From contig NC_083518.1 of assembly GCF_032362555.1 (NCBI RefSeq), positions 1,872,501-1,936,500 on the forward strand: a DNA stretch of 64,000 nt, in the 5' to 3' direction. This DNA comes from Amyelois transitella. Taxonomy: Eukaryota > Arthropoda > Insecta > Lepidoptera > Pyralidae. A program made the position numbers and the translations under genes. The notes beneath the pieces are model-generated. The model made no database searches and was not told the origin of the DNA. It saw nothing but the letters and a program-made list of their open reading frames with translations. Positions 9,099-52,400 of this stretch are shown piece by piece (the first letter of the stretch is position 1; every line of letters starts with the position of its first letter).

Positions 9099-9244
9099 AT
9101 GGCGGGTCGTTTCTATCACCCCCCGGCCATGGCGCGGCTCCGGTTTGCCAACGCGGATGACGCCCAGGCCATCATGGCGCTCGTCAATGACAGCATGTCC
9201 AAGACCTTCCGCGTCACAACCGCTTCTGACATCATCTATCTTTT
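9099..9244 (+). CDS. CFAP61: CFAP61 exon 1 (aa 1-48)
   Basis: Start ATG in AAACAAAATGGCG, encoding [20 protein letters not shown]. Donor gtaagg; ends with two bases of a Leu codon. The frame is open upstream of the ATG, but no earlier in-frame ATG is near, so this start is preferred. Confidence 0.85.
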
Positions 9245-12200
9245 GTAAGGATTTTGGTACCTTTTTGTGCAGCAAAGCATTTTTTGAAACTTAGACTTAA
9301 ACAACGTACAACTTAATACAACAACGTATATGTCAACTGCCTTGAAAAGACTGAAATTCCACGTTCAGGTGTATGGCTTAATCATGGACTTCAGATTGAA
9401 ATAGTGACAGGTTGCCATCGTCTACCACAAGAACCCAAGTTTACATGCCTTTTTTAGCTTTAAACAGAGTAGCTTGCGTATATTTCGTCGTTATTATAAA
9501 TCATACGGAAGGAGTTTTATTACAAGATGAAATTAATAACCCCTACACAATGAAAATTTTATTAAATTAGTTAAGTTGATAAAGCGTGAAATGTAGACAA
9601 ACAATAACAACACACCACCCTATTTATTATTATCTATTGATGAATAACACCCATGAATATCTTTATTCACGAAGTGGGTAGGTCACCCACTTCGTGAATA
9701 AAGATATTTTTATTTAATTATTTTTTTTTACTTCAGAAAAACAGTCATCTTTCGCGGACCCGGGGCTCCTATTCGAAACCAAAACTAACACGAAGATGAT
9801 GATTAAAAAAAATTTTTGTAGATCATGCCCCTGGTACTAACACTATTTTCAGAGACAACTGTGTGTTATCAATATGTCAGTTGGACATCCACGATTCTAT
9901 TGTCGGCTTCATGGCAGTCAAGGACTACCCACTGATACCCTCGGTCCATCCCAGCGCTTGGGAAGGATACATCTGGAGTAAATACAAGTAATTATTACTC
10001 ATCTATTTAAAAAAAATTGAAAATGCCGTGTGGTTGCCGGAACCAATAGAAAAAAGAGTAGGACCACTCCATCTCTTTCACATGGATATCGTAAAAGACG
10101 ACTAAGGGATAGACTTAAAAACTTGGGATTCTTCATTTAGGCGACGGGCTAGCAACCTGTAACTTTATGTAAATCTCAATTCTATCTGTAAGCCAAACTG
10201 TACGTGGCCTATCAGTATTTTCAAGACTGTTGGCTCTGTCTACCCTGCAAGGGATATAGACGTGATAATATGTATGTTTGCTCTCTATTTTTAAGAGATT
10301 TGGGACGAAGATGCGTTTTAAATTGAGTAATTTCACTTCGTCAGGAGTGATAGGCCAAGTTCAGCTGTTTGGCATAACGATAGAATTGAGATCTTTTACA
10401 ACATCCATGGGGGAGAGATGTAGTGGTCCTATTCATTTTTCTATTGGTGCCGGGAACCACACGGCACAAAATAGAGAGCAGATATACATATTGCTATTTA
10501 CCTATATTGACCTATGTGGCGCAACGGGAGTGTCGTTGCTTGAATCATGCTAAATACCGAGTTTAGGTACGGGTAAGAGAATAATTAAAATCGATCATGT
10601 CTTTATTCCTTACGGGGTAGACAGAGCCAAGAATCCCAATACGACTGACTGGAAGGCTACGTTCAATATGCCTCAATGATGGAATTGAGATTCGAATAGC
10701 GATTGCTAGTCCATCGCCTGAAAGGGGTATACCAAGTACCTAAGCCTTATAATGTTACTTTGAGAGAGAAATGTGCCGTGTGGTTCCCGGCAGTGCCGTG
10801 TGGTTCCCGGCACCAATAAAAAAAAAGAATAGGACCACTCCATCTCGTTCCCATAGAGGTCGTAAAAGGCGACTAAGGGATAGGCTTATAAACTTTGGAT
10901 TCTTCTTTTAGGCGATGGGCTAGCAACCCGTTCACTATTTGAATCTCAATTCTATCATTAAGCCAAAACAGCTGAACGTGGCCTATCAGTCTTTTGAAGA
11001 CTGTTGGCTCTGTCTACCCCGTAAGGGATAAAGACGTGATCATATGTATGTATGTATGTATGAGAGAGAAATCTGTATTGGATTTTTGACAGATCCATCG
11101 AGCTTAACTCAAGGAACACACTATGGATCCACCTGTATGTATGTATGTATGTATGTATGAGAGAGAAATCTGCATTGTATTTTGACAGATCCATCGAGCT
11201 TAACTCAAGGAACACACTATGGATCCACCTGTATGTATGTATGTATGTATGTATGAGAGAGAAATCTGCATTGTATTTTGACAGATCCATCGAGCTTAAC
11301 TCAAGGAACACACTATGGATCCACCTGTATGTATGTATGTATGTATGTATGTATGAGAGAGAAATCTGTATTGTATTTTGACAGATCCATCGAGCTTAAC
11401 TCAAGGAACACACTATGGATCCACCTGTATGTATGTATGTATGTATGTATGAGAGAGAAATCTGCATTGTATTTTGACAGATCCATCGAGCTTAACTCAA
11501 GGAACACACTATGGATCCACCTGTATGTATGTATGTATGTATGTATGAGAGAGAAATCTGCATTGTATTTTGACAGATCCATCGAGCTTAACTCAAGGAA
11601 CACACTATGGATCCACCTGTATGTATGTATGTATGTATGTATGAGAGAGAAATCTGCATTGTATTTTGACAGATCCATCGAGCTTAACTCAAGGAACACA
11701 CTATGGATCCACCTGTATGTATGTATGTATGTATGTATGAGAGAGAAATCTGCATTGTATTTTGACAGATCCATCGAGCTTAACTCAAGGAACACACTAT
11801 GGATCCACCTGTATGTATGTATGTATGTATGTATGAGAGAGAAATCTGCATTGTATTTTGACAGATCCATCGAGCTTAACTCAAGGAACACACTATGGAT
11901 CCACCTGTATGTATGTATGTATGTATGTATGAGAGAGAAATCTGCATTGTATTTTGACAGATCCATCGAGCTTAACTCAAGGAACACACTATGGATCCAC
12001 CTGTATGTATGTATGTATGTATGTATGAGAGAGAAATCTGCATTGTATTTTGACAGATCCATCGAGCTTAACTCAAGGAACACACTATGGATCCACCTGT
12101 ATGTATGTATGTATGTATGTATGAGAGAGAAATCTGCATTGTATTTTGACAGATCCATCGAGCTTAACTCAAGGAACACACTATGGATCCACCTGTATGT

Positions 12201-15200
12201 ATGTATGTATGTATGTATGAGAGAGAAATCTGCATTGTATTTTGACAGATCCATCGAGCTTAACTCAAGGAACACACTATGGATCCACCTGTATGTATGT
12301 ATGTATGTATGTATGTATGAGAGAGAAATCTGTATTGTATTTTGACAGATCCATCGAGCTTAACTCAAGGAACACACTATGGATCCACCTGTATGTATGT
12401 ATGTATGTATGTATGAGAGAGAAATCTGCATTGTATTCACAGATCCATCGAGCTTAACTCAAGGAACACACTATGGATCCACCTGTATGTATGTATGTAT
12501 GTATGTATGAGAGAGAAATCTGCATTGTATTTTGACAGATCCATCGAGCTTAACTCAAGGAACACACTATGGATCCACCTGTATGTATGTATGTATGTAT
12601 GTATGAGAGAGAAATCTGCATTGTATTTTGACAGATCCATCGAGCTTAACTCAAGGAACACTCTATGGATCCACCTGTTGTGCTACAACCCAGCATACGG
12701 CCGCGACGTGGTCGACAACATTCTGAAGTCTGTCTTCATGCACGACCCTTACGTTCAGTACATAGCTATGATCAAAACTTTGATTACTTGTCCGTGTACG
12801 TATGCGTTTGTTTGTTGTTTTAGAGTAGCTGTTTTTTAGGGATGAGTAGTTACATCAGATTATACTATCTGTCTATACATATAATAAATATAATATACCG
12901 ACGCCTTCAAAGGTAGAATATGTGTTAACAGAAACTGTACCTGAATAATTTAGACCTATTGTAACCATATTCAAGGAATAAATGATTATGATTAAGATTA
13001 AAATTATAACCAATGACAATTCTTGATGGATTATGCTAAAAAAATTATATGAGGATATCTATATCTAAATAGATCTAACCTGTAAAAGGTCAGCTATTTT
13101 CCATTTTATCGATGCGATGAAGTCGCGGACACCAGCTAGACATTCAATCATACATAAAATCATGCCTCTATCCCGGAGAGGTTGGCAGAGACTTGATTTT
13201 ATGTATGATTGAATGTCTAGCTGGTGTCCGCGTCCGTGTCTTTGGCATCATCCACATTCATTACTGTCTTCATTCAATCTTGTCGGTTTTGGGTACTCTT
13301 GACATACATACATACATATGATCACGTCTTTATCCCTTACGGGGTAGACAGAGCCAACAGTCTTGAAAAGACTGATAGGCCACGTTCAGCTGTTTGGCTT
13401 AATGATAGAATTGAGATTCAAATAGTGACGGGTTGCTAGCCCATCGCCCAAAAGAAGAATCCCAAGTTTATAAGCCTATCCCTTAGTCGCCTTTTACGAC
13501 ATCCATGGAAACGAGATGGAGTGGTCCTATTCTTTTTTTAATTGGTGCCGGGAACCACACGGCACACTCTCTTTGACTACCCTTGACTCCTTTCTATATA
13601 TTTTTAGTGTTAATCCCTGGACAATCAAGGTCTGAAGGTGCGTTCAGACGGGTGCAGGCGATGGAGCGCGGCGTTCCCGGGGACCAGCTCCCAGGTCTCT
13701 GCATAGCCGACAGGGTCGAAGTCAGCCCTAGGTTGAGGGTTAGACGAGCTGTGTTAGTATCCCTTAAAGAACTATTACTAAACTAGAGGCCGCCCGCGAC
13801 GTCGTCCGCATGGAAACCCTATCAAGCCCGCGGGAACTCCGGGATGAAAAGTAGCCTATATGTTGTTCTGGGTCTTCAGCTACCTACATACCAAATTTCA
13901 TCGTAATCGGTTCAGTAGTTTTTGCGTGAAAGAGTAACAAACATCCAAACTTTCGCATTTATATGATTAGTAGGATTTAAATGATATAAAAGTATTTTTG
14001 TTTTTGTCTCCTTCACTGCTAAAGTCTCAACTGATAGCGCATAGATTCTGCAAAGATGCTTATAGTAAATCCTCTGAAAAAGCTGTCAATATCGTCATGC
14101 CTTTTCCTTCAAGGTGTTCTTTTTCAATGACAGTTTTTAAGAGGCAAATTTGTACCTTTAACAGAAAATTTAAAGTGAAAATCTTAAAAAAGACTATTTG
14201 CGCCAATTACTTATCTGTGCGCAAGTGCGCAAAAAATCTTCCCGCCTTTTTTGAACGTTTTTCCGAATACACATCTTTTTATCGAGTCCAGAGTTTTATT
14301 TCGTCAAAAATTATAAATCAGGACTAGTTGTCCTCATCAAAGACTTGTCGGCAAATGACCAAAAGACCGCGGTCCTTCGAGGTGGACCGGAGTCGGCCCA
14401 GGTCCAATCTTCCTTGGACACCAACTTTCACAAAAGCCCCGATGGGAAAGACCACAACAAATACAGGGAAATCATTGGAGAGAAAGTGATTCTGCGGGTG
14501 TGTGACGACCCTCAGTAATACGGAATAGACGCGAAGAGAGAGAGAACTTCTAATGACAAAGGAATACGAACAGCGGTATCCGCGAAATTAAAGCTATCTT
14601 TGGTCTTCACTCGGCAACAAAAGCGTGCCTCTTACATACATACATACATATGGTCACGTCGATATCCCTTGCGGGGTAGACAGAGCCAACAGTCTTGAAA
14701 AGACTGAATGGCCACGTTCAGCTATTTGGCTTAATGTTAGAATTGAGATTCAAATAGTGACAGGTTGCTAGTCCATCGCCTAAAAAAAGAATCCCAAGTT
14801 TGTAAGCCTATCCCTTAGTCGCCTTTTACGACATCCATGGGGAAGAGATGGAGTGGTCCTATTTTTTTTGTATTGGTGCCGGGAACCACACGGCACGGCC
14901 TCTTTATTCATTAAAACTTTTTCTTCATGATAACAGCGAAGAAGACAATGACGACATAGTGCCTATAATCGAGCACCAGTCGCCTCGCCTGAGAGAGATC
15001 TATGGAGAGTTCTATATCAGCGAACTCATATCTAGGCATCCAGAGTCTGAAAGAGTATTGCTGGTTTGCGAGGTATAGTCACTTGCAATGAAACTTGTAC
15101 CCCTTTTGTTTGTATAAAGAAAGGGGAATATTTCTCTACAGATGACTTTAAGAAAACCAATAAAAGTACACAGAAGAACTTCAATATTTTAACCCTTTAT

Positions 15201-18200
15201 TAACAGTCACATTGCTTAAAAGCTCTTCCTACCCCTCAGGGAAAAAGGCGTGATTTTATGTATGTATATTGCTTTAAAGAAGAGAGATCTTTTCAGCATG
15301 AACATTAAACCTTAATTTTGTGACTGATTTCCTAATAATCTCATAAGTTATTTTTTTTTTTCAAACATGTTGTAACCAAATCTGATATCACCTCCGACAC
15401 ATCTTCAATTCGATAGTTGTATACATTCCTAAGGGGCCCACTGTAAATAAACTTATCTCACTAGTCAATATTTTAATAGATACAGGAGCACAAACAACTT
15501 TGTTACAAACATACATATAATTACGTCTATATCGCTTGCGGGGTAGACAGAGCCTACAATCTAAAAAAGACTGATAGGCCAATTTCAGCTGTTTGACTTA
15601 ATGATAGAATTGAGATTCAAATAGTTACAGGTTGCTAGCCTGTGGCCTAAAAGAAGAATCTAAGTAAGTCTATCCCTTAGTCGCCTTTTACGACATAACG
15701 GGGAAAGAGATGGAGTGATCCTATTCTTTTTTCTATTGGTGCCGGGAACCACACGGCAAATTCAAATTCAAAAATATTTATTGTGGTACACAGGTATAAA
15801 AGATATAAAAATGATAAACATGTAAGGTGTCACTGTGGCCTGTCTATAATAGACGTACAATAATTAAGGTTAGGCAAACAACTTTGTGTTACGAAACAAT
15901 ATATTTCTCATCAGCACAAAGAGGTGGCCGTGGGCGTGATGTGCATCAACACTCAGATAAATTACGAGGCTCTGGAGGAGAACTTCGAGCTGTCTCCGTT
16001 TGGTGGTCTTCGTTACATGGAAACGCATACCTACGTCAAGTCCAATCCAGAAACGGATGAGTGCGTCAGGTGATTTAACATTTGAAATTCATCAGGACTT
16101 TCGCGTTTTTTCATTATTTTATTTACTCTTTTATTCAATACTAGCGACCCGCCCCGGCTTCGCACGGGTGCAAAATTATAAATGTTATTATACATAAAAA
16201 CCTTCCTCTTGAATCACTCTACCTGTTACAAAAAACCGCATCAAAATCCGTTGCGTAATTTTAAAGATTTAAGCATACAGATAAACAGACTAAAATAGCG
16301 ACTTTGTTTTATACTATGTAGTGATGATATTCTTTATCATAATTTACGTCATTTTCTTCTGTATTTATCGTCTTCGTCTCTTTTTCTTACTTTACTTTCT
16401 TTATTTCCTCTATTTTTGTGCCGTTTGGTTTCCGATACTTTAGAATAGGACCACTCCATATATATTTCCCAGAGATGTCGTATAAGCCGACTAAGAGAAG
16501 AGCTTATAAACTTTGAATTCTTCTTGTAGGCGACGGGCTAGCCACTTGTCACAACTTGAATCTCGATTCAATCATTGGGTCATACAGCGGGACGTGGCCT
16601 TACAGTCTTTTCAAGACTGTTGGCTCTGACTACCCCGCAAAGGATATATGTCATAATACGTATTTTTTTTTTTATTCATTATGCTAACAACACATAACTT
16701 TCCATAAATATGCATTAGAGTGTACCCGTCGCCAACCTTTTGACATTAAAGAATTTTTAATTTTGAAAATTTAACTTTGAAACTTTAATTACTCGATCTT
16801 ATCTTGTTTTGATATTTTCAGTATGTCCCCAAGCATGACGATGACCCCGGATATATCTTCAGTCCACAAATTTGATTCAAGTCTAAAAATGAAGGATTTT
16901 TTAAAAGCCAGAGTGAGTTGAGTTTATTGCAAATATTGATGTTTGACAAATTTGATAAAACTCACCAACAATACAGCTGAACGATCAGTCTTTCCAAGAC
17001 TATTGGCTCTGTCTATCCCGCAGGACGTGATCATATATATATGTATATGTAACTTGGGATACTTCTTTTTAGGTGATGGGTTAGTAACCTATCACTTTTT
17101 GAATCTCAGTTCCATCATTTAGTCATACAGCTGCAAGAAAATATAGCCTTTTCAGATACTGTTGAACTTTGAATGAAAGGCTTTGTCTAACCTATAAGGG
17201 ATAAAGGCTTGATTATATTTTTGTACATCCTTTAATATTTGGACTACGACGAAAGGTAACATGGATACCGGAAGACGACAACATGCCTGACAGTGCAGAC
17301 TTGAACCTGATTGCCGGCCACCGAACCACGCCCACGTACGCCGGCAGCCAGCTGGAGATCCTCCACCTTCTGGAAGACGAGGATGAGGAGTTGGAGTTCG
17401 ATATTGTCAATATTGACCACGCTCTGCTGAGGGTGCCCGAAGTTCTTGGCTATAAGAACATTGAAGGGTTGGTACTAATGTTTATGAGGACAACTAGTTC
17501 TGATTAATAATTTTTAACGAAATAAAACTCTGGACTCGATAAAAAGATATTCGGTAAATGTCAAAAAAAGGCGGGAAGATTTTTCTTTTTTTTTTACTAT
17601 GGAAATTGCGCACAGATATCTAATTGGCGCAAACAAATGTCGAAATATAATCATGTTCCTCGTGGCTTGGAAGCTCTTTGATTCTCCTTTTAGGCAATGT
17701 GCTAGTTGTCTGTTTATTTTTTACCTGTTCATGCGTTATCTACTGAACCAGTCTTCTTAAAATTATGTGCATAAATTCTGGAGAAGAGAGTCTGGAGAAG
17801 GACATAAGGTACTTCTCATCCCGTTAAATCTTTAAGTTTCCGAGATTTGCGAACTCCCTGTTACTTTCGTAGGTGGCGCTAAATTCGCGCATGTAAAAGT
17901 CGAAAGCGGGTAAAAGCTAGTTTGTATTTTTTCAAGGCAAGAGTGAATAAGCACTATTTGAGCTTGCGCGCACCAAAGGCTATCTTGTTTTCCACCAGGC
18001 AGAGTGAGGTCAAGCGCATTCATATCCATTGTGAAGAAAGTATATACATATAATTTTCTTGGCTTTGTGCTCTGCTTGGGCAGGACACCTTAGTCTACGA
18101 GGTGGAAGCAGGAATCATTGGTTTACAGTCACATATTCAGTGGAAAGACTATATAAGTTTTCCTCGGTATTTTTCCATTTCCCCAATATATGTGTATATA

Positions 18201-21200
18201 TATATAAAGGTATATATGTATATATTAGTATATATATAAATATATGTGAATTATATTTATATATATATACTTATATATATAATTCACATACATATTTAGT
18301 ATTCCATCAATACTACAGCCATTTACAAATCAGGTTGGTGCCAAATCGTTTTAGAAATTTAATGGTACCACTAATGGCACAAAGAAGTTGTCTGCAACAT
18401 CAATTCCCTACGCTAGTAATAAGAGTTTGGCTGTTGAAAATAATCGAAATAGAATTAACGAAAGTGCTATTTTTAGACTGGCTGATAGTATTACAAAGCA
18501 AATAGAGGAGACGAGCAAGATAAAGAAAGAGGACGAAGAAAAAGCTGCTAAAAATAATAAAAAGAGGAATCGTAAGTATTTACCGAGTAAATAGTAAATT
18601 ATTTGTTTGTCTATATACATACATACATACATAAAATCACGCCTCTTTCCCGGAGGGGTAGGCAGAGACTACCTCTTTCCACTTGCCACGATCTCTGCAT
18701 ACTTCTTTCGCTTCGTCCACATTCATAACTCTCTTCATACAAGCTCGGCGGTTTCGGGTACTTTTGACCTGACCCTTTACCAGGACGTCCTTAATTTGAT
18801 CAAGATACGTTCGTCTAGGTCTTCCCACTCCGACCTTTCCCTCCACACTCTCCTTGTATATCTGCTTAGTCAACCTGCTTTCATTCATCCTCTCCACATG
18901 ACCGAACCATCTTAACATACCCTTTTCTATTCCTGTAACTACATCTTCTTTCACATCACAACATTCCCTTATCACGCTGTTCCTTATCCTGTCACTCAAT
19001 TTCACACCCATCATACTCCTTAACGTTTGTTTATATAGACGTTATAATATAGATATAGGAGTTAGAACGTTGCAAAATACAAACGCCCTGAGATAGAAAT
19101 TACCAAAAATAAAAAAAAGGGAACCTTGGATCTCGATAATTGAATCTTGGAGCCTGAATGTGCGGATTTCCTCACGGTGTTTTTCTTAAGATCATCGGAA
19201 ATAATACATACATAAAATCACGCCTCTTTCCCGGAGGGGTAGGCAGAGACTACCTATTTCCACTTGCCACGATCTCTTCATATTTCCTTTGCTTCATCCA
19301 CATTCATAACTCTCTTAATGCAAGCTCGGCGGTTTCGGGTACTTTTGACCTGACCCGATATCGGAAAAAATGAATAATATAATATCTATACATATATATA
19401 CACATATAGAAATATGTAAAAAGAACCTATGTTTCCAGCCTCAGCGCCAAGTTTCTCCAGCAATTCTACCAGCAAACCTCACGAGCCTAACCGCTACGCC
19501 GGGGCTCCCAACGCATTTCTTCTGGAGCTTTTTGCTATCCATCCCGATTATGATGAGAGGTTTGTCTTTACATCTAGTCTATTTCAATTAGTTAGTCTAC
19601 TTTTAAGGGTAAATTGAGTGTTTGAAGATCTCAAAGTTTATTGCTGGTTAGGCCAATGTGAAAAATGCATTTTTCAGATAAATATATATATACTATATAT
19701 ATATTTGTTTTACTTATCCCGTTGATTTATCTTCCCGAGAATAAACCTCTGTTAGTGCACATGGGCCATATAAGAAATCTAAACGTCAAATTGAAAAGAT
19801 GATTTAGAAAACAAATCATTTTTTTTTACCTATACAATATAGATTGGGAATTAGTTTAGAAGCAGTCTGTCTTCCTTGGGTTCCAATATCCTTTTATTTT
19901 CAGATACGGGTTCGACATATTAGAAGCTGCGTACGAGCTGTTTCCCAACAGGGACTACTGCATACTCTGCCTGCCGTCCAATCATCCATCTTTTCCCCTA
20001 CTCGATCACTTTACGGTAAATATACCTCTAGTATAGCCACAATCTCCTCTCTGTCAGGAATGCGGATGAAGATAATCATTTGTCTTTCCTCTTTTGCTTC
20101 CCCTAAACCATTTCATTCACTTGGAAATGATCTTCCTTGCCATTCCTCTCAACACCGGACAATCTTAAGCTATTCTAGCGTCTAATTAGGCTTTGAATAT
20201 CTTTGTGCTTGTAAATTTTGAAAATTTATTTAGTCATATTAATTTAGAGGTTTTTACTAAAACAAAATTTCTTGTGTAACAGAAGAACAATTATAACGGC
20301 ATTAATACCGGATTTATCTTTTAAATGAAATACACATACAGCACATTATGTTACAAGTTATGTACATTTGTTTGAATACTAAAAGATGCTCTTACGGTGA
20401 GGGAAAACATCGTGAGGAAACCTGCACATTTAGGCAACTAGATGTGTAACCATGGATCCAATTTGTATTAGGTTTACCTGCAAAGGTTGCGGAGGTCAGA
20501 TGGGAATCGCTTCTTGTAAAAACCTGACTCATCCAATCCAGATTCCATAGTCAAAGGCATACCCCAGGCTCCTCTCCAAAGAGGTGAAAATACAACCGGG
20601 ACTAAAATCAGGAGGAAGGAAGATACACATACAGCACATATGAAAAATATATATTTTCCAACTAAATTATACATAAATAAAAACGTGTCCTCAGTTGGTG
20701 ACACCTTACGGGAACAGGCTCAGATTTATCAACGAGACCTTGTACGTGGCGCACGTCAACTCTGTCAGAGGGTAAGACACTTAACGGCGAACGAATATTT
20801 AAAACAAATAAAATGAATCTCTTCGTCAACCAGTTCATTTTTTTTTTTTTTCTTTTTTTTAATCTTTGTCGGTCGTTAACAGTTCAGTGACATTTATTAG
20901 GAGGCATTTGCTTATAAGACATTTGACACCTCCACAAGCAAACGGAAACAGAGTCTTGGAGGACTCCCAGAGCACGCGCCAAGACTTCTAAGTATGGTGT
21001 ACCTATTCGAGTACACCCATTTCTTTACGCCATAAATGTTTAAATAATCTTTCAGCACCATAGCGGTTCGTCCAGGTGAAGCCCATGACCTGGAGAGATT
21101 GAGCGATATCCTGGAACACGCGCCGAGGCCCCAGGCCCTGCTGGACCTGTTTGAGTCCACCCTCGACTCTAAGATCCTGTCATCATTTATGCTGCTGAGT

Positions 21201-22931
21201 GAGAAGCAACCAATCGGAGTCATTGTTATTGGGTACGATAGAATAAGTTGCTTTATATACTCGTAAATACTTCTATAACTGACATCTACAACATTATCGC
21301 GTGAACCTAACCCATATTGGATCTTGGTATAAATACGTCCTTAGTGTGGTCGCAGCCAAGAAAAACGCACTTCTGATTCCTTCCTCTTCTTCTACTTCTT
21401 TTTTCCCTCTCACCTTCCAAGTTAGAAGCCCATGGTCCGCCTCTGACCACGATACTAAATAGCGTAATCCAAGGCTTTACCGTACCTTACTATCAAATTC
21501 CTCTTACTCAACCCCATCTTCAAAATGTCATGCCAGTGAATTTTGTGATTTTAAAGTAATACAATTTACATACATACATACATATGGTCACGTCTATATC
21601 TCTTGCGGGGTAGACAGAGCCAACAGTCTTGAAAAGAATGAATGGCCACGTTCAGCTACCTATTTGGCTTAATGATAGAATGGAGATTCGAATAGTGACA
21701 GGTTGCTAGCCCATCGCCTAAAATAGAATCCCAAGTTTGTAAGCCTATCCCTTAGTCGCCTTTTACGACATCCATAGGAAAGAGCCATATCCATAGGAAA
21801 GGACCACTCCATAGTGGTCCTTTCCTATGGATTTTAGTTCTTTTTTGTATTGGTGCCGGGAACCACACGGCACACAATAATACAATTTGACTGTATTTTA
21901 GACCTATAACAGACGGGGCCGCTGTTCGTATGCAGTACGATTTAGAAGCGGAACCACGTCGAGCAGGAACTGATGCCACTGTATGTACTATCAATATAAT
22001 GAAATCCTTTAAATTTCAACTAACGTAATTAAAAATGAAATATGAAGCCTCTGCCTAACTAAGTCCGGAGGAGGAGGCGTGGTTTTTATTTATGTACTTA
22101 TTTTAATTGGAAATTTATTTTAAAAAGAAAACCGCCTCCAATTGATATCTTCATTTTATGAAGTTGATTAAGTTTTCAAAACTTTCTCCATAATGTAACA
22201 AACAGTTTCCTGCAAACCGCATCAAAATCGGTTCAGCGAAACGAGAGAAAATCGCGGAGAAACATACATACATCATTTTTCGCTCATCATAACACAGGTT
22301 ATGAGGTACGAAGGTGGACTTATCGTTAAGGCAATCTCTTCCAGTCAACCTTAGGGTGGGAGCAAACTGAAGAATAGAAAGGCGATATGATACATACGTA
22401 TGTAAAATCAAGTCTTTATTCGTTACTAAGTAAACAGAGTATATCTGTATTGCTTTTCGATGGAATTGAGTTTTAAATGGTGCTAGCTCATCGACATGAA
22501 AAAGAACCCTATATTGTATGACGGTGGATTAATTTATGCCGTGTGGTTCCTGGCACCAATACAAAAAAGAATAGGACCACTCCATCTCATTCCCATGGAT
22601 GGCGTAAAAGGCAACTAAGGGATAGGCTTACAAACTTGGTATTCTTTTTTAGGCGATGGGCTAGCAACCTGTCACTATTTGAATCTCAATTCTATCATTG
22701 AGCCAAATAGCTGAGCGTGGCCTTTCGGTCTTTTCAAGCCTGTTGGCCCTGTCTACCCCGCAAGGGATATAGACGTGACCATGTATGGTTTAATTTGCAG
22801 GTGGTGGCTGGTGTGCTGTCCCCAGCGTTCGAGCCCCACGGCCGCTGGTTTATGCGCGACATCTTGCGGCAATCGCCGTACACTACACTCTTCTGGTTGT
22901 GCCGACTCTTCGCCAGGGGTGATGTGGTAAG

Positions 22932-22962
<31 letters not shown>

Positions 22963-25900
22963 AAATCACGCCTCTTTCCCGGAGGGGTAGGCAGAGACTA
23001 CCTCTTTCCACTTGCCACGATCTCTGCATATTTCCTTCGCTTCATCCACATTCATAACTCTCTTCATGCAAGCTCGGCGGTTTCGGGTACTTATGACCTG
23101 ACCCTTTACCAGGACGCCCTTAATTTGATCAAGATACGTTCGTCTAGGTGGTAAGTTAAACTAGCAGAAATCATCTCGGCGGCGGGATAACGACTGCATA
23201 TCATTTGGCAGCGTGCGACACCACGTGATTCCCAGCACTTTAGGAATGGGACTACTTTATATCTTTCCTATTGATGTCAGAATATAGTGTCAGCTTATTA
23301 ATATCACTTGCAGGCTAACTTGAGAATAAGTGTCAGCTTATTAATACCACTTGCAGGCTAACTTGAGAATAAGTGTCAGCTTATTAATACCACTTGCAGG
23401 CTAACTTGGGAATAAGTGTCAGCTTATTAATACCACTTGCAGGCTAACTTGGGAATAAGTGTCAGCTTATTAATACCACTTACAGGGCCCGAGCCGCAAT
23501 CTGACTTCCATGGCGACACACATGACCCCAGTGCACCCTCGACGCACGGTGCCCAATATCACAGGGAATAAGGACTTGGATAAGTTGACACAGGATTTGT
23601 TAGTATTTCATTATTAATTCTTCCAGAATTTTCTAATCAGTCTGACAGTCAATTCTATTCTACGACTATCGTCGTTTGGCAAAGATCCAGTTCGACGACT
23701 TACTTTTTGCCTTCGGGGATATAAAGCCAAAGGTCTTTTTAATTGAAAGATTCCACGAAAGAAAATTAGGGCTATTATTATTTTGCATCTTGTTAACCAT
23801 CATGTGAATTGACTCCAAAACCACTCAAATATTGAGTTAAAAACAAAGTTTTGAAGAAGTAATGTCCTGACTGCGAATACAAAGGTCTGCTCCTGCGTTA
23901 TTCACAATTTCCCTTTCAACCAATTAATGTAAACTAGAAAGAATAAATAATAAAAGTATTTATTCTTTCTAGTTTACATTAATTCCCAGGGCTGTCCCCT
24001 TCGCGTTATGGGTCCTGGAACGGCCGCTGACCTCGGTACCAAAAGTGTTTGTCAACAACAGCATCGTAGTGGTGGGAGCCAGTCGGACGGGACTGGCTTT
24101 CCTGGAAACACTTATCATGGGGTGATGAATCCTATTTAATATCTCATCATCGCACATTGATTATCACAATCCCATCATCTCATGACTAACACATCACCAT
24201 TCATCCTTACATTATAATTTACTGATTTTGGTTCGATTTTCGTCAATCCGCTCGAACCAATTATTTTTAAACCTGGTTTTAGCTATTAAAGAAAAAGCAT
24301 GTGTTCCCATGGATATCGTAAGAGGCGACTAAAGGATAGGCTTATTTACTTAGAATTCTTCTTTTAAGCGATGGGCTAACAACCTGTCACCATTTGAATC
24401 ACAAGTCTATCATTAAGCCAAACAGCTGAACGTGGCTTAACAGTCTTTTCAAGGGATTTGGACCTGATTATATGTACGTATGTATGTTAACACATTTGTT
24501 ACCCGCCAGTTCCACAGCACCATACCTGACCTTCACCAACGTGACCCTGGTGACGGAGCACGGTCTACCCACGGTCGCCGAGTGCCTCAAGGCGGCGGAC
24601 ACCTGCGTGCCCAAGTTGGGACGGTACACCGACCGGTACCTCAAGACCGTGCCGTTCTACTTCTACGTGGACGTCATGACCGCTGTCATGGTTAATATTG
24701 ACAGGTACATACTGTAGAAACCTCTCCTCCTTCACTCCTCACTGGCTCGACAATGCACCTGTGCAACTGTCCCACTACGTCCACTCTCGCCGGCGGCTCT
24801 CGTGATAATGACGTAGTGACATTACACAAGTCACACGAGACAGTGTATTTGTATAATTCATATACATACATACACTACACATAATTACATACCTACATGA
24901 AATCACGCCTTTATCCCGGAGGGGTACGTAGAGACTACATCTTCCCACTTGCCAAGATCTCTGCATACTTTCTTCTGTTCATCCACATTCATAATTCTCT
25001 TCATGCAAGCTCGGCGGTTTCGGGTACTTTTAACCTGACCCTTTGCCAGGTGCATTGCATCAATCTGTGTCTTTTTCAGCTTATTCTCATCCGAAATGTT
25101 TTTAGCAACACACGGCATTCTTTGCGGACTTCCGTTGCCTCTCTTCCAATTATTGTCTTTTTTTATTGGTGCCAGGAACCACACGGCACGTTCCCGGCGA
25201 TGGGCTAGCAACCTGTCACTATTTGAATCTCAATTCTATTATAAAGCCAAACAGCTGAACGTGGCCTTTCACTCTTTTCAAGACTGTTGGCTTTATCTAC
25301 CCCGCAAGGGACGTAGATGATATGTATGTATGTGCCGGGAACCACACGGCACGGCAATGATCTGTCATCATAGCTTTTCGATCTACCAATTGCTTTTCAA
25401 ACTGTTGACTTCCAAAGACGGTGGTCATTAAAGTCATTCAGTACTTAAACGATTCTGGCGTTAGTTCATACTATGTTATGAAAATTTGAAAGCATTTTCA
25501 CTAACTGCTGTTGTTTCTTAATAAATATTTCTTTTTGTTACATTCAGACAAAAGAAATGCATTCATCTGAAAGGCGGCGGGGTCAAGTACTACGACGACT
25601 TAGTGCTTACATGCGGCCAGCAGTTCCAGCATCCAGACTATTTGAGCGAATCTCTTGAACTGGTGAAAGAAATCGAGTTAGTATATTATTGTTCCTGTAG
25701 GAAGTACTTATAGTTACAAAGTCAGTAATTCCTACAGACTTAAGAGGAAATATTAATATGGAAAATATTCTTAATTTTATGTTAAAACTGATTATTTCTC
25801 TCCTCTTTTCTCCTTCTATCATCTGTAGGAATAACTAACTTTGTAAAGAACTATCTTCCTACAACTGGTAACCCCTGAGAACACGGAATTTGCAAATGTA

Positions 25901-28900
25901 AAGCAGAATTGGCGGACTTAATGCTAGAAGCATTATCTACCAGTCAACCATCGTGTCTGACAGAGAACTTTATAATACATATAATCACGTCTATATCCCT
26001 TGCGGGCTAGACAGAGCCAACAATCTCTCTTCAAATAGTGACAGGTTGCTAGCCCATCGCTCACAAGTAGAATCCCATGTTTATTAGTCACTCCCTTAGT
26101 TGCCTTTTACTACATCCACAGATAAAAGATAGAGTGGTCCTATTTTATCGAAACGCCGGCAACCGTGTGGTTGCCGTTGCAAGCTATTACATGACGAAAA
26201 TCTCTATTAATCAGTGAAATCGTACTCTTCCCCAGAAAAGGGAGACCGTGCGAGCGTATGCTGATGGATAATCCAAAGTACCAACCAGAGCGAGTGCCAC
26301 CTCCCCCCGACATGCCGGACAATCTGTTCCTGGTCAATTCACTGTTCGAAGCCAATTTCAACCTGAGGAAGCTCGTTAAGATGATATCTGAAGCGAGTGA
26401 GTTTAATATATTAGATATAGTATTTAAATAGCATTATATAGCATAGCATAGCTATAGCGCATAGCTCTGTACGGTATACGCATGGGTATTGAAGTAGCCT
26501 GTACTAAGATAGATTCATCAAAATTTTTCATCGTAATCTGAAGTGATCTTGGAACTCTGTATTCAGAAACAAGAACTTTACTACTGTCAAGATGATTATA
26601 ATAACTGATAATAACTTAGCAACAAAATTTTATATCAACTGAATAAATCTGAATTCTGTGCTGTTTGGTTTCCGGCGCTTCAGAATAGAACCACTATATA
26701 TCTTCCATATATATATCGTAAAAGGCGACTATGGGATATGCTTACAAATTTGTGATTCCTTTTGTAGGCGATGGGCTAGCAAACTGTCACGGTTTTAATC
26801 TCAATTCCAACCTTAAGCCAAACAGGTGAATGTTCAGTATTTTCAAGACTGTTGACTCTGCCTATCCCGCAAGAGATATAAACATGAGATTGATATTCCA
26901 GTTGATTTAATTTTGTAGCTACCTGCATAATTATGAATTCATCATTGACCACTAGAATTCCTTGAAAGGATATCATTCAATTAAATTTTCTCTACATTCC
27001 CAGAAGACACACCGCGCTGCCTCAGCGAAGACAACCATGTGATAGTGTACGGAGACTGTATAGAAGTGTACTCGTGCATGGCCGCTCTCCTGGAGCTCGG
27101 TATTCAGGCCAGCATGATCACGTTCGTGGAGCCGTTCCCGCCCGAGGACAGCAACGCTATGCGGGTCAACTGCTTCAATGATGAAATCGTGTGTACATAT
27201 TATATTGGGATAATAAATAAGTCTTTTTATTTGAGAATAGTTCTGCACTGGACGTGGGAAGGAATCCAATTTTCAATCGACATTATTTAAACAACTTAGA
27301 TTTTATCCGCAGGTGTATAAGTTTTTCGCTAATCCCGCGGGATTTTTAGTTTTAGCCGGGATTAATAGTTTGTCCTTCTCCAGACTCTTAATAATATATA
27401 CGCAAAAATTCAAGAAGATGGGTCCCCTAAATAACGCTTGAAGCAAAGAAAGAAGAGAAAAAGCTTCAAGAAGAAGGAAACAAACTAATAAACTTACTTT
27501 CGTATTTAGTTGGGATGGTCTTATGAGCCGAATTGCTGGAGATGAGCTACTCTCGCTTTATGGTTTCAAAACCGTATCCTTTCTTGACTTCCTACAAATT
27601 ATCTATGTATTGTGCCTTTTATACTTAGTAAGAGAAGCCATTTAATTATCTTTCTGAACTAGAAAAGTATAACTTGCGCCATTTTTAAGAGATTCACGTA
27701 GATGAAACCAAGTATCAATGGTCTTCAAAATGAAGACACTGTAGGCCAGTAAAGTGGTAAGAGAAATGTCGAAAATCGGACCCCGGTTCCCGAAGCATAG
27801 CAATGGAAGTTACAATTTGGAACACGCAAATACTATAGAGATATTATTAGTATACCTCTAGGTTTGGATTAGAGATATACTAATTTAGCAGAGTAGTGGT
27901 TTAATTTAAATAACGGAGCAATCGGTAAAAAAAAAGATATTTTATTTTAAGTTACATATAAGATGAGTAGCAAAGACATGACATGAAAAATAAAACAAAA
28001 TCTATCAAATAAATAGAATCAATTCAAAGATGAATTAGAAGAAAAAAAAACTCTTAAACTCTAAAGAGGTTTGTCCCTCCAACAGATATATAATTAAACT
28101 AGCTGTGCCCGCGACTTCGTCCGCGTGAAATAGTTATTTTGGGCATCATTAAAGCCCTCGAGGATGAATAATTTTCCCCGTTTTTTTTTCACATTTTCCA
28201 TTATTTCATCGCTCCTAAAAGTTGCAGCGTGATGTTATATAGCCTAAAGCCTTCCTCGATAAAAGGACTATTCAACACAAAAAGAATTTTCCAATTCGAA
28301 TCAGTAGTTCCAGAGATTAGAGCGATCAAACAAAAAAAAAACCCTTCAACTTTATAATATTAGTATAGATTAAGAGCCAAGAATAAAGCGTATCCTGTAG
28401 GTGGACGGAAGAGTTCAGGCGAGCATCAAAAAGTTGGGAATCCGCGAGCTTCGTCGCTGCACCCTCCACGGCTGGAATGTGCACCACAACAATATCATCT
28501 CCGTCGACCTGATGGCCCCGCTGCATGCAATCTTCCTGCCTTGCTTCGCTTTATTCTACTACGGATTGAAAGCAATTGATCTGTACGCTTTCAAAGGTAA
28601 GTTTACTGATTTCTTAACTATAGTTTACTTGTGTGTTTCTTTGATTGGCTTCAGACTGCATAGCCGGCCATTTGTGTCATATTCCTAAGCGTGTCACTCT
28701 CTATAAAATCTGTATCTCCTAGTATATCCATGTAGACTCAGTCAAGCTTTGCTTAGCTGGATGTGGCCCCAATCTTCATAGGTATTTATTTTATTATTCG
28801 ATCAAGATTTAAGACGCAGTTCACCTGTAATTAACTTTGAAAACAATTATGATATCATCTTTAAAACAAGAGAGAAAGAATGAACTGAGCGCCGGTTTCA

Positions 28901-31900
28901 AATTCGTGGACACTAATTCAAAGACAAAACTTTACCGAAAATATATCAACAACTAAACCTTGTTTTCAGCTATAAACGAGAGTGGGTTAGTTTACGACGG
29001 CGGCGTCGTGGTGAGTCCCCAATTCGAAACCAACGACCCTCACATCTACGCGGCGGGGACTTGCGTCCGCTATTCTAGAAAATTGTACGCTAAGAGGATG
29101 AATCACCGCTATTATTCTTCAGAGGACGTCGGGGAAGCGGTTTGTTTCTTCTGATTCTTCTTGATACCTCTTTTTCGTAATTAAGCCACTAATTGGTGTC
29201 TTTTTGCGTGGATTTAACCAGTTGATTGAAATCACAACCACACTTTTTTCTCATCAAATAAAATAAATATATACGGGACAATTTACACAGATTGAATTAG
29301 CCTCAAAGTAAGTTCGAGACTTGTGTTAGGAGATACTAACTCAACGATACTATATTTTATAATAAATACTTTTATAGATTATCATCCAAGACCCAGGCCA
29401 ATCAGAATAAGTTCTATTGTCATCATGCCCTGGCTGGGATTTTAACCCGGGACCTAAGTTGTCGAAGACAAGCGTATTACCGTTGCGTCTTAGAGGCCGT
29501 CAAATCAAAGTCAAACATACGCTAATTTTTATGAAAATTCCAACGGGAAACAAAAAACAAAAATTTAAAATCAATTCACAACCAATTTCTAATTAAAGTT
29601 CGTACTGTTTCATAGCGCAAATGCGCGCAATAAGCAGCGGAACAAACTACACTGCAGAACAATCATTTTAGATATAAAGAGTTGTTTTTTTTTCCTTCTC
29701 TTTTTTCAGCTCGCAAGACAATTTCTAAGAAAAGTGGATCCGTTCGTAATGGCCGACCCCCGCCCGGATCCGACTGACACATTGCACCCATGCAGCTCAA
29801 GTGTTCTCGGGTACATTTAATAATTCTTTGCATACTTACATATGTAAATCACTGCTTTATCACTAAGGGGGTAAACAGAACCAATTGTGTCGGAAAGACT
29901 TAGGTCAAGCTCAGTGGAATGACATAGGTTATATGGCTTTGAGTTCACTTCCATAATATATAATATGTTATTCCCAAGTTTATGAGGTATACCTACCTAT
30001 TTCTTACTCGACATGAGTAGTCCTTGTGCCACTACTTGTATTAATTTTTAAATATCAGTTCGTCAAAAATAACTCACTTGATTACAGGTTTAGAACGTCT
30101 CAAACTAGTGCCTCCGCTGTCAAACTCGTAATCGGAGTACAGAGAAAGTATGTAATTTTTATTAATTAAAAATAAATTAACGCAGCTGTAATACGATTGT
30201 CTAAGAGACAGTAGGTCTCTGGTTCGAATCCCGGTCAGGGCATGACGAGAAAAATAACTTTTTCTGCTTGTCTTGGATGTTAATCTAATAAGAATTTATT
30301 AGATACATAACATACGGTATCGTCGAATAAGTATCTCGTAACACAAGTCTTACTTCGACGTTGACTCAATCTCTGTTATTTGTGTCGTAAAATTATATTT
30401 ATTTTATCATGCAACACTTGAGGCTTTTCTTAACTCCCTTTAAAAATCCTTTTTGTCCAGTTCAGTATTACTCGCCCCCTATTCTAAGAGTGACAGATGA
30501 ATGAATGTAGGTACCTACAAAAAAATTAATTGACATGTTTGACAGATGGCAACCAGTGTTGAAATTCGAATCGCCGTTGATGGTGGCGGCCACCGTGCCC
30601 GGGCCGATGTACTACGTGAAGCTGAGGAAACCAGGGCCAGAAATACCCATGGAAGTGCAGCTGTCACTTCCTCATCAGGTAACATTACCTACTAGTCGTG
30701 AGTATTTTCAGACTGAGAATATTGAGGTGTTCATTTTACAAACGTAGTAAGTCAAAATCGGTTTTGGTGGTTAAGGCGTGAAAGGGTAACAGACAGAGTT
30801 ACTTTCGCATTTTTAATTTTAGTAGGGATAACTATCCAATCTGTCGCCTTAGGCCTTTTGTCAGCGAATAGAGCACTAACGCAGACCGCCGCCATTTTGT
30901 ATTTTATATTGTACTTACGTTATATACGTTATATATGTATTTTGTATTGTACTAACTACATATTATTTTATTCCCAGGGCCACACCCTGTTGACAGACAA
31001 ACGAAATAACTACTTCCGCGTGCAAGTGAACGTTTTGCATTGCGTGGATGCTGTCACCTGCCTGGCGAGGAAGTATTTCTCCACGGAGATCCTGTCGCAA
31101 CTCTATGGGAAACACGAGGCTCTGTTCAACAAGCTTTTGGCTCGATTCAATGTAACATCCAGATTTTTTTACATCTTCGTTGCGTTCTATATAACTTAAG
31201 AACAACATAGTCCAGTTATCTCATTTACAACTAATTAATCTGTTTAACATAAATTCTAATCTCATCTTTATTATGTATGAGGTAGCTAGTCTTGAAGACT
31301 GAAAGGCCACGTTCAGCTGAATGATAGGTATATATCATAATAAGGAATGGAGATTCAGTTAGTGACAAGGAAGAATCAATCAGCCTTTTTTTCAATTGAC
31401 TTAAGTACCTACAATCGTAGCAAGTTTTTTTCTTTACTCCAGACCAGCATGGAAACTTGCACTTGATGAATGTGCTCCTATTCCCTTAGTCGCCTTTTAT
31501 GACATCCATTAGAAACAGGTGGCGTGGTACTATTTAAAGGCTTTTATCAAATTTTCAAGATGTGGCCGGCTGGGTTCTTTTCAGTGATAAAATGAAAACT
31601 TGACACAGTTAAACTTAGTTTGCATTCGTGTTTTAGCTATAGATTTACGTACACTACAATAAACAAATTATAACAATAAAACCTTAAACATAATAACAAA
31701 ATATAACTTACAAATCGTCGCGGTAGCGCACGGGAGGGTTCCTCATTGTGCTTGTACATAGTGTTGCCTGTTATAATTTTACTTTTATTTTTGTCTCTGT
31801 TTCTTAGTTTTGACTTTTCCAAATCCTACTGATGTAACATTTTCTTTTTGCTATGGTAGTTGGGACTGATTGAGGATTTTTACGAGTTCTTCACTCAGCC

Positions 31901-48830: not shown

Positions 48831-49320
48831 CCAATGGAACGCAGCTAATAATCTATTAAAGAAACATGAAACGCAGCTGGAATAGTCATTGCTTACTACT
48901 GCAGCCAACCAATAACAAAAAAAATTAAATAAATTTTAACCAATTAGCTGGACTATAAAAATAAAAGACTTGCGCGGATTGGTTGATAATTTTTACCTAT
49001 GACAATATTTGGGTATACGTCAAAATTGACAATACATACAACTTGATTTTCCTGTGTTGAGTTTTCGGGACGTATTTTTCTCGTTTGAGAATGTTATCAA
49101 AATAGATAACGATTATGTTGCTTTATAATTCTCTCACCAACAGGTGGTGAAATCGCACCAGAGCGTGCTTATAATTTAATTTAAAGTTTTCGTTTGACAT
49201 GGCATTGCCGTGACCGGGACCGCGTTGTGATATTTTTATTATTTCACTTTATAAAAGGCGTGCAATTATTTTGTTATGTAACGTTTATAGTAGTGTTTTC
49301 GGTGTTGTATTATCATAAGA
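48831..49320. promoter_or_regulatory. DPH6 5' flank (promoter region inferred)
   Basis: The promoter should lie here by position. No TATA element is seen. GC content rises near 49200-49240 (tgccgtgaccgggaccgcgt). The two ATGs at 49321 and 49324 are candidate starts. Confidence 0.35.
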
Positions 49321-49438
49321 ATGATGAGGACAGTGGCTCTGATCAGCGGCGGCAAGGATAGCTGCTACAACATGATGCAGTGCGTAGCCGCCGGGCACTC
49401 CATCGTGGCTCTGGCCAATCTCCAACCGATACAAAAAG
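49321..49438 (+). CDS. DPH6: DPH6 exon 1 (aa 1-39), PP-loop
   Basis: Two in-frame ATGs; the second matches the family's usual M-R start. Encodes RTVALISGGKDSCYNMMQCV and AAGHSIVALANLQP. Donor gttact, phase 1 out. Confidence 0.95.
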
Positions 49439-52400
49439 GTTACTTTACATCTTTCCAGATTTAGACATGCATCTTTCAACACCATTCCAATATGTAATTT
49501 TTAATAAATAAGCATAATATTTTTTTTGCAAGTAAAATGTCTTATAGTATAATAAATCTCAATTTTGAATTGATTCAGGCCATGTTTACTATTGGATGGA
49601 CTATGAACTGAAATTAAACAGGTGTTGTCAAGGATTATGTTATTATAGCAATATGTAATATTAATAACTGATATCTTGATGATTTTATTACTATTTTTAT
49701 CACATTATCCTTTAATAAATTACTGCATTATTTGAAAAAACAATTCATGCTTATTGCACTTTTTTCTGAATTAGAGACATTTATATGTTTTATTGGCAAT
49801 AGTATGAGTTCCTCCCTACATCCCAAACCCACATATTAACATGCTGTAAAAAGCAATAATGCTAATTTGTATGAACACCAAAAATGTTATTCATTGTGTT
49901 TACTTAAGATAGAATTTATCTACAACACAATGATTTGACTATAACTATTTTCACACTATTTTAAATCCCAACTAGTATCATAAATATATTGCTTTCACAT
50001 TTACAAACTTATGTTTGTTTAGTTTGCCTCTCCATAGTTTAATTGCTAAATCAACTATATAATATAATTAAGACCATGAAAAGAACAATAAAGAACTGGA
50101 ATTACTTTTTGATATTGAATCATAACAATCAGAAGGATAAACATGAAACACAAATAATAGAATTTATTTTTAAGAACTGTTATAATCAACTGAGTAAAGT
50201 CTTATTTATTTTTTGTTATTATCCAATAGGAATCTGAATTATAACTATATGTAAGTTAGTATGAAATATTTTAATTTATATTGTAGATGAACTGGACAGC
50301 TACATGTACCAAACTGTGGGCCACCAGGGTATAGATTTGTATGCTGAAGCCATGGGCCTTCCCCTCTACCGGGAGGCTATAACTGGTGTGGCTGTTGACC
50401 AGGGTAGGAACTACCAACCGACGGACAATGATGAGGTGGAGGATCTGTTCAGGCTACTATCCAGGATTAAGGTAAATGTGATTTTATACTTGGTTACCTG
50501 AAGCAAATTGCTATTTTTAATTAATGGTTTTCACGATGGAAATATTAAGAAAATTTGTAGGAGTAAATTGAGTTTTAAGTAAACAGAGTGCGAGATAAAA
50601 ACTAAGAACAAACTTTCGTTTTGTATATTTGTAAGTTGGGTGAAGCCATAGGGTGCAGGGCTAGGACTACGCTTCTACAAACAATACCTATATATCGATT
50701 GTTAGTCTTCCAAATTAATAAATAAATAAAACTATTTTAAATAACCATATTGATACAATAACCATACAGAAAAATTTCTATTCTCTCTACCAAAATATCT
50801 TTATGTTCCATAGGTTAAACAATATCACTGCATTGACGTCAATCATTATAACAGCGAGATAACAAAATAATCTTTTCATTCACAAAATGACTGAGAAACA
50901 TCATGGCGCCAAACTTCCTTTATTATGCATACACTTGCATAAACATGTGCCGTGTGGTTCCCGGCATCAATAGGACCGCTCCTTCTCTTTCCCATGGATT
51001 TCGTAATAGGCGACTAAGGGATAGGCTTATAAAATTGTGATTCTTCTTTTAGGTGATGGGCTAGCAACCTGTCACTATTTGAATCTCAACTCTATCATCA
51101 AGCTGACTGTTGCCTATCAGTCTTTTCTAGACTGTTGGCTCTGTCTACCCTGTAAGGGATAAAGAGGTGACTATATGTATGTTGTATAAACATCAAATGA
51201 GTGCATAATTTGAAATGTCCTTAAATGAGAACATTATTTTTAATTTTGTAAACAACTTAATAATGAGTTGAGCACATACATTAATACTAATTAAGCACTA
51301 AGATGGTCATAAAACTTTAAATAGATACGTAATTTTTAAACTGTTTTTTGTAAGACTTTAAATATGTGACAGTACCTATTAATAATATGCATATAACCTA
51401 CATGCTTGAAATCACGTCTCTTTCCTGGGGGGGGTAGACAGACTCTACGTCTTTTCACTGGCCATAATCCCCGCATAACAAAAGCTTTTCAATTTGTATG
51501 TAAAGGAGATAAAGATACTATTATAGTATTTATGTATGTTGGGGCTAAGTTATATTCTATTTTCAGGATGAATTAGATATAGAAGCTGTGGCTGTGGGTG
51601 CAATCTTGTCAGACTACCAAAGAATTAGAGTTGAAAATGTGTAAGTATAGAATATAGAATATTTATTTGCATATGACTAGGGTTTTTTTTTTACTAAAAA
51701 TTTATCATAAAAATCACTTTGCATGCTATAATTATAAATAACAATAAATTATTCCTTAGTGAATAATAGAATTTGACTCTAAAAATCTCTGGAAAAGTGG
51801 TTGACACACACATAAAACCACTGAATGGATTTGCAAAAATTTAACAAGCAATTAATTCAATAATGTTAACGAAAATTTTACAGAAATTCTCATAGGAACA
51901 GAGTCCTTGATAAAAGTTAAATTTTAAACTTTTATTAATACATTTTTAATTTAACAAGCTGCGCGCGCGCGAATTAAACACCACCTGCAAAAGGTGATAA
52001 ATTTAGCGCCACTACAAAAGACAGATACAGATTTTTCGCAAATCCCACGGGAACTTTATTTTTACAGGCATGAAAAGTATCCTGTGTGTCTCCAGACTGT
52101 TACGCAAAATTTCAAGAAGATTGAATTACTAGATAATGCGTAAAGAGGCAACAAACAAATAAACTTACTTTCGTATTTATAACTTTAGTTGGGATTAGCC
52201 TCCATGTCTCATTATTTATTACGTAATTGTTTTTTTTTTATACCAGGTGCCGAAGGTTAGGTCTAGTCACATTGGCATATCTCTGGAGGAGGAATCAGAA
52301 GGAATTGCTCCAGGAAATGATAGCATCCGGGATTGAAGCTATAATCATCAAGGTGTGTATATTTGTATCAAAGTGTTAGCCGTGTGGTTTCCTGCACTTT

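Follow-up and report, generated by a model that had tools for sequence, protein, structure and literature searches.

The window analysed here is a 64,000-nucleotide stretch of the genome of the moth Amyelois transitella (contig NC_083518.1, positions 1,872,501 to 1,936,500). It contains a CFAP61 gene in which a minisatellite, directly upstream of exon 3, repeats the end of intron 2 together with the start of that exon. Splicing at this gene faces seventeen near-identical exon 3 starts, namely the genuine one and 16 decoys. The array begins at the tail of a short interspersed nuclear element (SINE) that is bounded by a target-site duplication. The features concerned are as follows.

9099..33657, plus strand: CFAP61 coding region, 30 exons, 4095 nt followed by TGA; exact match to the 1365-residue protein P0001
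9853..9987, plus strand: exon 2, ending in phase 2, donor GTAATT
10762..10772, plus strand: left target-site duplication GAGAGAGAAAT
10773..11061, plus strand: SINE-like element with a (TATG)n tail
11062..11072, plus strand: right target-site duplication GAGAGAGAAAT, 20 nt 5' of the first exon-start copy and recurring in every unit
11043..12678, plus strand: minisatellite (Tandem Repeats Finder: period 96, 17.0 copies, 98% matches, score 3135)
11093..12580, plus strand: 16 decoy 42-nt exon starts, the first at 11093-11134 and the last at 12539-12580, each carrying a CAG acceptor and a GTATGT donor
12635..12795, plus strand: genuine exon 3, 161 nt, donor GTACGT

All 1365 residues of P0001, which carries the NCBI name Amyelois transitella CFAP61-like, are encoded in the window by exons separated by GT-AG introns. 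This exact gene model bears out the identification as CFAP61 made in a preliminary description of the sequence, along with the end of exon 2 at 9987, the start of exon 3 at 12635 and phase 2 at the junction. A query of joined window exons matched three chains in the PDB, two of which bear the name CFAP61; the third was deposited as CFAP20. The Pfam domain CFAP61_N (PF16092) was recognised on four of the ten stretches submitted (exons 2, 3, 5 and 6), the exon 2 stretch scoring 22 bits, which is under the curated cut-off of 27. Coding exons range from 72 to 212 nt and introns from 257 to 2647 nt, with intron 2 being the longest.

In P0001, the end of exon 2 (9987) is followed by the start of exon 3 (12635), and the 14-residue segment that corresponds to the repeated exon start is present once. 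The cluster of P0001 holds one member sequence. An approximate joined query retrieved 52 proteins from a protein database, and no second A. transitella isoform was among them. The 14-residue segment is recognisable in 45 of these homologous proteins (score of at least 27; 74 against itself) and not in the other seven, and a second copy was found in none of the 52, the highest second-best score being 22. In both mice and men, loss of CFAP61 is associated with male infertility (PMC8841411).

The array of 16 upstream units bearing the exon 3 start, as it had been proposed, is confirmed by Tandem Repeats Finder and by the positions of the copies, and the score is far above chance expectation. In a standard unit, the SINE tail accounts for 24 nt, the target-site duplication for 11 nt, the intron end for 19 nt and the exon start for 42 nt. 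The exon-start copies begin at 11093, 11189, 11285, 11385, 11481, 11577, 11673 and 11769 in the first half of the array and at 11865, 11961, 12057, 12153, 12249, 12349, 12443 and 12539 in the second. The 96-bp unit length first reported applies to 13 of the 16 spacings; two units are of 100 bp (following 11285 and 12249) and one is of 94 bp (following 12349). Similarly, the intron end was said to be the same in each unit, and it is exactly ttgtattttgacag before 14 of the 16 copies but not before the first copy or the copy at 12443. Among the 16 copies there is no difference in the 42-nt part and, as previously noted, a single synonymous base sets them apart from exon 3 (ACA in the copies versus ACT, both Thr). 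At the edges, the first unit has a distinct intron end and the genuine exon has ACT; only about five or six variant events are seen overall.

The SINE next to exon 3 has a fixed 5' end, a repeat tail and a target-site duplication, although the initial G of the right-hand duplication might belong to the SINE tail instead. When the SINE core was used as a query, 43 BLAST matches were found in the window, fragments counted, of which 23 lie inside the CFAP61 gene. Most SINE copies that extend to the 3' end have TATG-type tails and a few are without. The first 20 bp of the exon 3 SINE are tandemly duplicated at its 5' end (10773-10812), and 13 BLAST matches begin at query positions 21-24, directly past this duplication. 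No tRNA was identified by ARAGORN in 10000-14000, and no match at gathering score was identified by Rfam in 9600-13700; the array also resembled mir-297 and MIR9555, but at scores so far under the Rfam gathering scores that these matches were set aside. A TATG-tailed family was not found in the available portions of a paper on Helicoverpa SINEs (PMC3272025) and a paper on lepidopteran RTE elements (PMC2887409), and the SINE is left unnamed.

The origin of the array may be considered in terms of three steps. In the first, which the sequence shows directly, the SINE inserted 20 nt 5' of the exon 3 acceptor and duplicated GAGAGAGAAAT. In the second, a tandem duplication is likely to have brought position 42 of exon 3 next to the TATG tail at the junction CACCTGT/ATG. 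Because the TGT at this junction is common to exon 3 (CACCTGTTGTG) and to the SINE tail, a microhomology-mediated tandem duplication would be a simple origin of the array. In the third, unequal exchange or slippage would have grown the array to 16 extra units, consistent with the near-identity of the units and a recurring 100-bp variant. The two 100-bp units lie ten positions apart and suggest a later block exchange. The GTATGT donors come from the (TATG)n tail.

Splice sites were scored with matrices built from the 29 introns of CFAP61 alone; where a junction was ambiguous, the one nearest GTAAGT was taken, which if anything flatters the real donors. The described layout of acceptor, 42 nt and a good GTATGT donor was upheld. 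The decoy donor CCT/GTATGT scored 6.41 bits, higher than 21 of the 29 real CFAP61 donors, in a comparison that slightly favours the decoy as it was scored on the full matrix and the real donors by leave-one-out. GTATGT is also the donor of exon 14 in the gene model. Decoy acceptors scored 4.09-7.05 and the genuine exon 3 acceptor 4.09.

Each unit presents five or six GTATGT registers for a total of 82, of which 32 are in frame, giving a 42- or 54-nt exon, and 50 are not. In three of the units, the first register scored 6.41 bits and the others 5.87. Thus, the proposal that units could be included in any number with the frame intact is correct for the 42- and 54-nt registers but not for the remaining 50 of 82. 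In the 42-nt register, inclusion of 1, 2, 8 or 16 copies gives an open protein of 1379, 1393, 1477 or 1589 residues, respectively. Unspliced read-through from a decoy acceptor is open only from 12443 and 12539 (1429 and 1397 residues) and meets a stop from the other 14 of 16.

Four further ideas about the array were set aside. The open 96-nt unit (32 codons) was rejected as a sign of coding: one of the three frames on the minus strand likewise lacks stops, as do 14% of shuffled versions of the 54-nt part. A single protein-coding repeat was rejected since the units of 100 and 94 bp interrupt the frame. The idea that the decoys are blocked by lack of a branch point was also rejected; the motif yTnAy is absent at -50 to -15 of exon 3 and likewise missing in 11 of 28 other CFAP61 introns, and the joined empty site, without the insertion, has yTnAy at -44. 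Lastly, selection on the exon copies is not claimed, as about four to five variant events counted by hand among the copies, with none in the exon part, give a chance p of 0.10-0.06; the ACA/ACT difference is a further event that lies outside this count.

A second, smaller array offers some comparison within the same gene.

23279..23486, plus strand: acceptor-bearing minisatellite, 43 bp x 4.8, directly 5' of CFAP61 exon 16

Its decoy acceptors at 23314, 23357, 23400 and 23443 scored 6.1-6.9 versus 6.4 for the genuine site. Because each of the four would bring a premature stop if used, the exon 16 array suggests that picking the last acceptor is workable in this gene. An enrichment of arrays at acceptors was considered and rejected since arrays placed at random in the gene fall on an acceptor often enough (95% of trials for the large array, 25% for the small array and 23% for both) that two hits are not unusual.

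From these observations, the array before exon 3 is probably a young, SINE-seeded minisatellite of the kind called a 'mirage' in amphioxus, which splicing mostly ignores. In most transcripts, exon 2 would be joined to the last acceptor. With nearly the same sequence upstream of every copy, acceptor choice must rest on the downstream sequence, and the last acceptor may be chosen because it alone belongs to a full-sized exon, with 161 nt and a GTACGT donor, as opposed to 42-nt decoys that are 54 nt apart. Support for the use of the last acceptor can be drawn from the annotated single-copy protein, from the homologues without a second copy, and from the exon 16 array. The array would then be, for the most part, neutral intron DNA that contributes some splicing noise, and its frame would have been retained by chance and youth. 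The preliminary description had remarked that the retained frame may reflect youth, and this fits: the chance that the exon part is divisible by three is approximately one in three, and the event counts are not significant. The two alternatives offered there, that the copies are decoys for splicing to disregard or that they generate length variation, are supported as the alternatives to be weighed; the SINE origin, the outcome of unspliced reading and the amphioxus parallel are additions to that description.

Several observations weigh against a mirage that splicing ignores. That the protein has a single copy comes from annotation, and arrays of this type are poorly resolved by short-read mapping. 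The decoy donor outscores 21 of 29 real donors, and three decoy acceptor types, at 4.81-7.05, beat the genuine site at 4.09. The 54 nt that precede the genuine acceptor are the same as those before most decoys; therefore, nothing in the intron sequence can distinguish the last acceptor. At exon 16, the genuine acceptor is one base off the decoys of its array (TTACAG versus TTGCAG), which makes that array an imperfect control and a weaker parallel. Lastly, in human ABCA7, a unit of a splice-site-bearing variable number tandem repeat (VNTR) can stay in the mRNA (PMC5954066).

A further feature of intron 3 must be introduced before the other explanations are weighed.

13317..13565, minus strand: antisense SINE in intron 3, matching the sense core 10793-11044 in inverted orientation at 96.0% over 252 positions

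The sense core and the antisense SINE flank the array and exon 3, and they are the best of four inverted pairs around the 30 exons in a survey that required an overlap of at least 100. The computed duplex energy of the pair is -454.5 kcal/mol. Inverted repeat pairs can favour exon skipping or circular RNA. Intron 2 holds further SINEs, in both orientations, that could compete for pairing.

An alternative to the mirage is that some transcripts take in one or more 42-nt copies as microexons, adding 14-residue segments and making the length of CFAP61 variable. Such inclusion appears quite unlikely. While the acceptor and donor scores are usable in each unit and the protein stays open in the 42-nt register for every case tried (1, 2, 8 and 16 copies), just 32 of the 82 GTATGT registers are in frame, so the frame is not kept in every register that might be used. 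Exons of 42 nt and introns of 54 nt also fall outside the ranges of the gene, although skipping a unit would lengthen the introns. In an AlphaFold model of a Euphydryas relative (P0008; 34 aligned sequences, mean pLDDT (predicted local distance difference test) = 65.7, block means of 83-95 across residues 11-110), the insertion point falls within a loop that runs from helix 85-93 to strand 103-111, where the block pLDDT is 83-92. In terms of this predicted fold, extra 14-residue segments are not plainly impossible and the loop might bear them. The one annotated isoform and the absence of a second copy in all 52 homologous proteins argue the other way, as does the lack of significant excess conservation in the exon parts. 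Moreover, the published amphioxus arrays of like kind are reported as splice-neutral mirages (PMC3087553, PMC3902484).

Modulation of dosage is another explanation that is unlikely. Here, a longer array would yield less correct mRNA, either from use of upstream acceptors with read-through or from skipping of exon 3 aided by the inverted SINE pair, and copy number would tune CFAP61 output. In its favour, read-through from 14 of the 16 decoys would lead to a premature stop, and skipping the 161 nt of exon 3 would shift the frame. The inverted pair itself, at 96.0% over 252 positions and the best of the four, would favour skipping; however, the other SINEs of intron 2 could pair instead. Published cases also point in both directions. 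The ABCA7 VNTR has units that carry the exon 18 donor and its longer arrays have more exon 19 skipping, yet retention of a unit is itself independent of VNTR length (PMC5954066). The authors of the canine Merle study propose that the choice of acceptor is determined by the length of the SINE tail (PMC6091007), whereas the amphioxus mirages are reported as neutral (PMC3087553, PMC3902484).

An assembly artefact, in the form of a wrong repeat number or a mis-join, is very improbable. Near-identical units are hard to count; however, the copies bear variants in a definite order (100-bp units after 11285 and 12249, the 94-bp unit after 12349, and a distinct first unit), the flanking exons are exact and in gene order, and the P0001 record sits on a contig of 10,985,285 bases, with 1.6 kb being a length that fits one long read. 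The most far-reaching idea is that of an expandable splicing rheostat, in which seventeen acceptors compete and the number of units, together with the 96% inverted SINE pair, would set the levels of intact, repeat-bearing and exon-3-less CFAP61 in testis. It is doubtful that the array acts in this manner. If true, individuals would be expected to have heritable differences in the form or amount of a sperm-tail protein.

Repeats also lie near other exons of the gene. Exon 15 (22801-22926) is situated between repeats within 22537-22996: a sense SINE core ends 18 nt 5' of its acceptor and an antisense TATG-tailed repeat starts just downstream of its donor. A sense SINE fragment at 17051-17256 ends 38 nt 5' of the exon 8 acceptor. 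In intron 3, the segment 13131-13226 forms a strong hairpin with sub-threshold Rfam microRNA matches, such as mir-590 at 41.4 bits versus 65, and is perhaps a small inverted-repeat element. Outside CFAP61, reading frames on the plus strand at 49294-59329 resemble exons of what is presumably DPH6 (diphthine-ammonia ligase), judged by eye from motifs.

With respect to the array before exon 3, a neutral outcome for splicing is the likeliest, and splicing at similar lancelet arrays is reported to be undisturbed. The locus provides a natural test of how the spliceosome picks one of seventeen acceptors that are preceded by nearly the same sequence, a circumstance in which local 3' splice-site strength can hardly explain the choice. 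It also presents a mirage with a readable origin, where a SINE tail beside an acceptor would give both the microhomology for duplication and ready-made GTATGT donors. Should moths differ in array length, it would be possible to measure directly in CFAP61 how the number of decoys affects splicing.

Among known systems, several share some part of the arrangement. The VNTR in intron 18 of human ABCA7 likewise has a unit that includes a real splice site beside an exon and repeats it as decoy sites (PMC5954066), but it differs in lying on the donor side, with a 25-bp unit that starts with the exon 18 donor, in its proven length polymorphism, and in a length that correlates with exon 19 skipping. 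The canine Merle SINE in PMEL also lies at an intron-exon boundary, has an unstable tail and is proposed to affect the choice of acceptor (PMC6091007); in contrast to the moth element, it is an antisense SINE with an oligo(dT) tract, and no amplification of exon sequence is described in the portion of the paper available. Genes in human segmental duplications have boundary minisatellites that are able to alter splicing or form introns, though these are known from comparison of paralogs and average 30-bp units x 4 (PMC2812944). In cases of intron gain, tandem duplication makes new pairs of splice sites (PMC2891723); those duplications occur inside coding exons, whereas the moth array covers an acceptor that already existed and gives no evidence of a new intron. 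No insect array of this kind was among the matches listed in a literature search that took in few subscription journals, which is weak evidence that none exists.

The moth array belongs to a published kind for which the 'mirage' minisatellites of amphioxus are the nearest. These were described in the globin genes BflGb6 and BflGb9 and in Adh3, and consist of minisatellite-like tandem duplications that in BflGb6 contain the 3' end of an intron and the 5' part of an exon (PMC3087553). Reverse transcription PCR and data from Adh3 suggested no interference with splicing, and the number of units varies between haplotypes (PMC3087553). Lancelet TnC and PGBD5 have mirages as well, and the same point on splicing is repeated for Adh and TnC (PMC3902484). 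In amphioxus both haplotype length and RNA were examined, while the moth array is known from the sequence of one assembly. As in amphioxus, the moth units span an intron-exon boundary, in 16 copies plus the genuine exon 3, and carry AG and GT signals, with CAG and GTATGT found in 16 of 16. BflGb6 has 3 or 6 units of 150-160 bp that are 81-100% alike, whereas the moth has 16 extra, near-identical units of approximately 96 bp. The mechanism of origin was called unclear in the amphioxus globin paper (PMC3087553); in the moth it is readable from the SINE tail and the target-site duplication.

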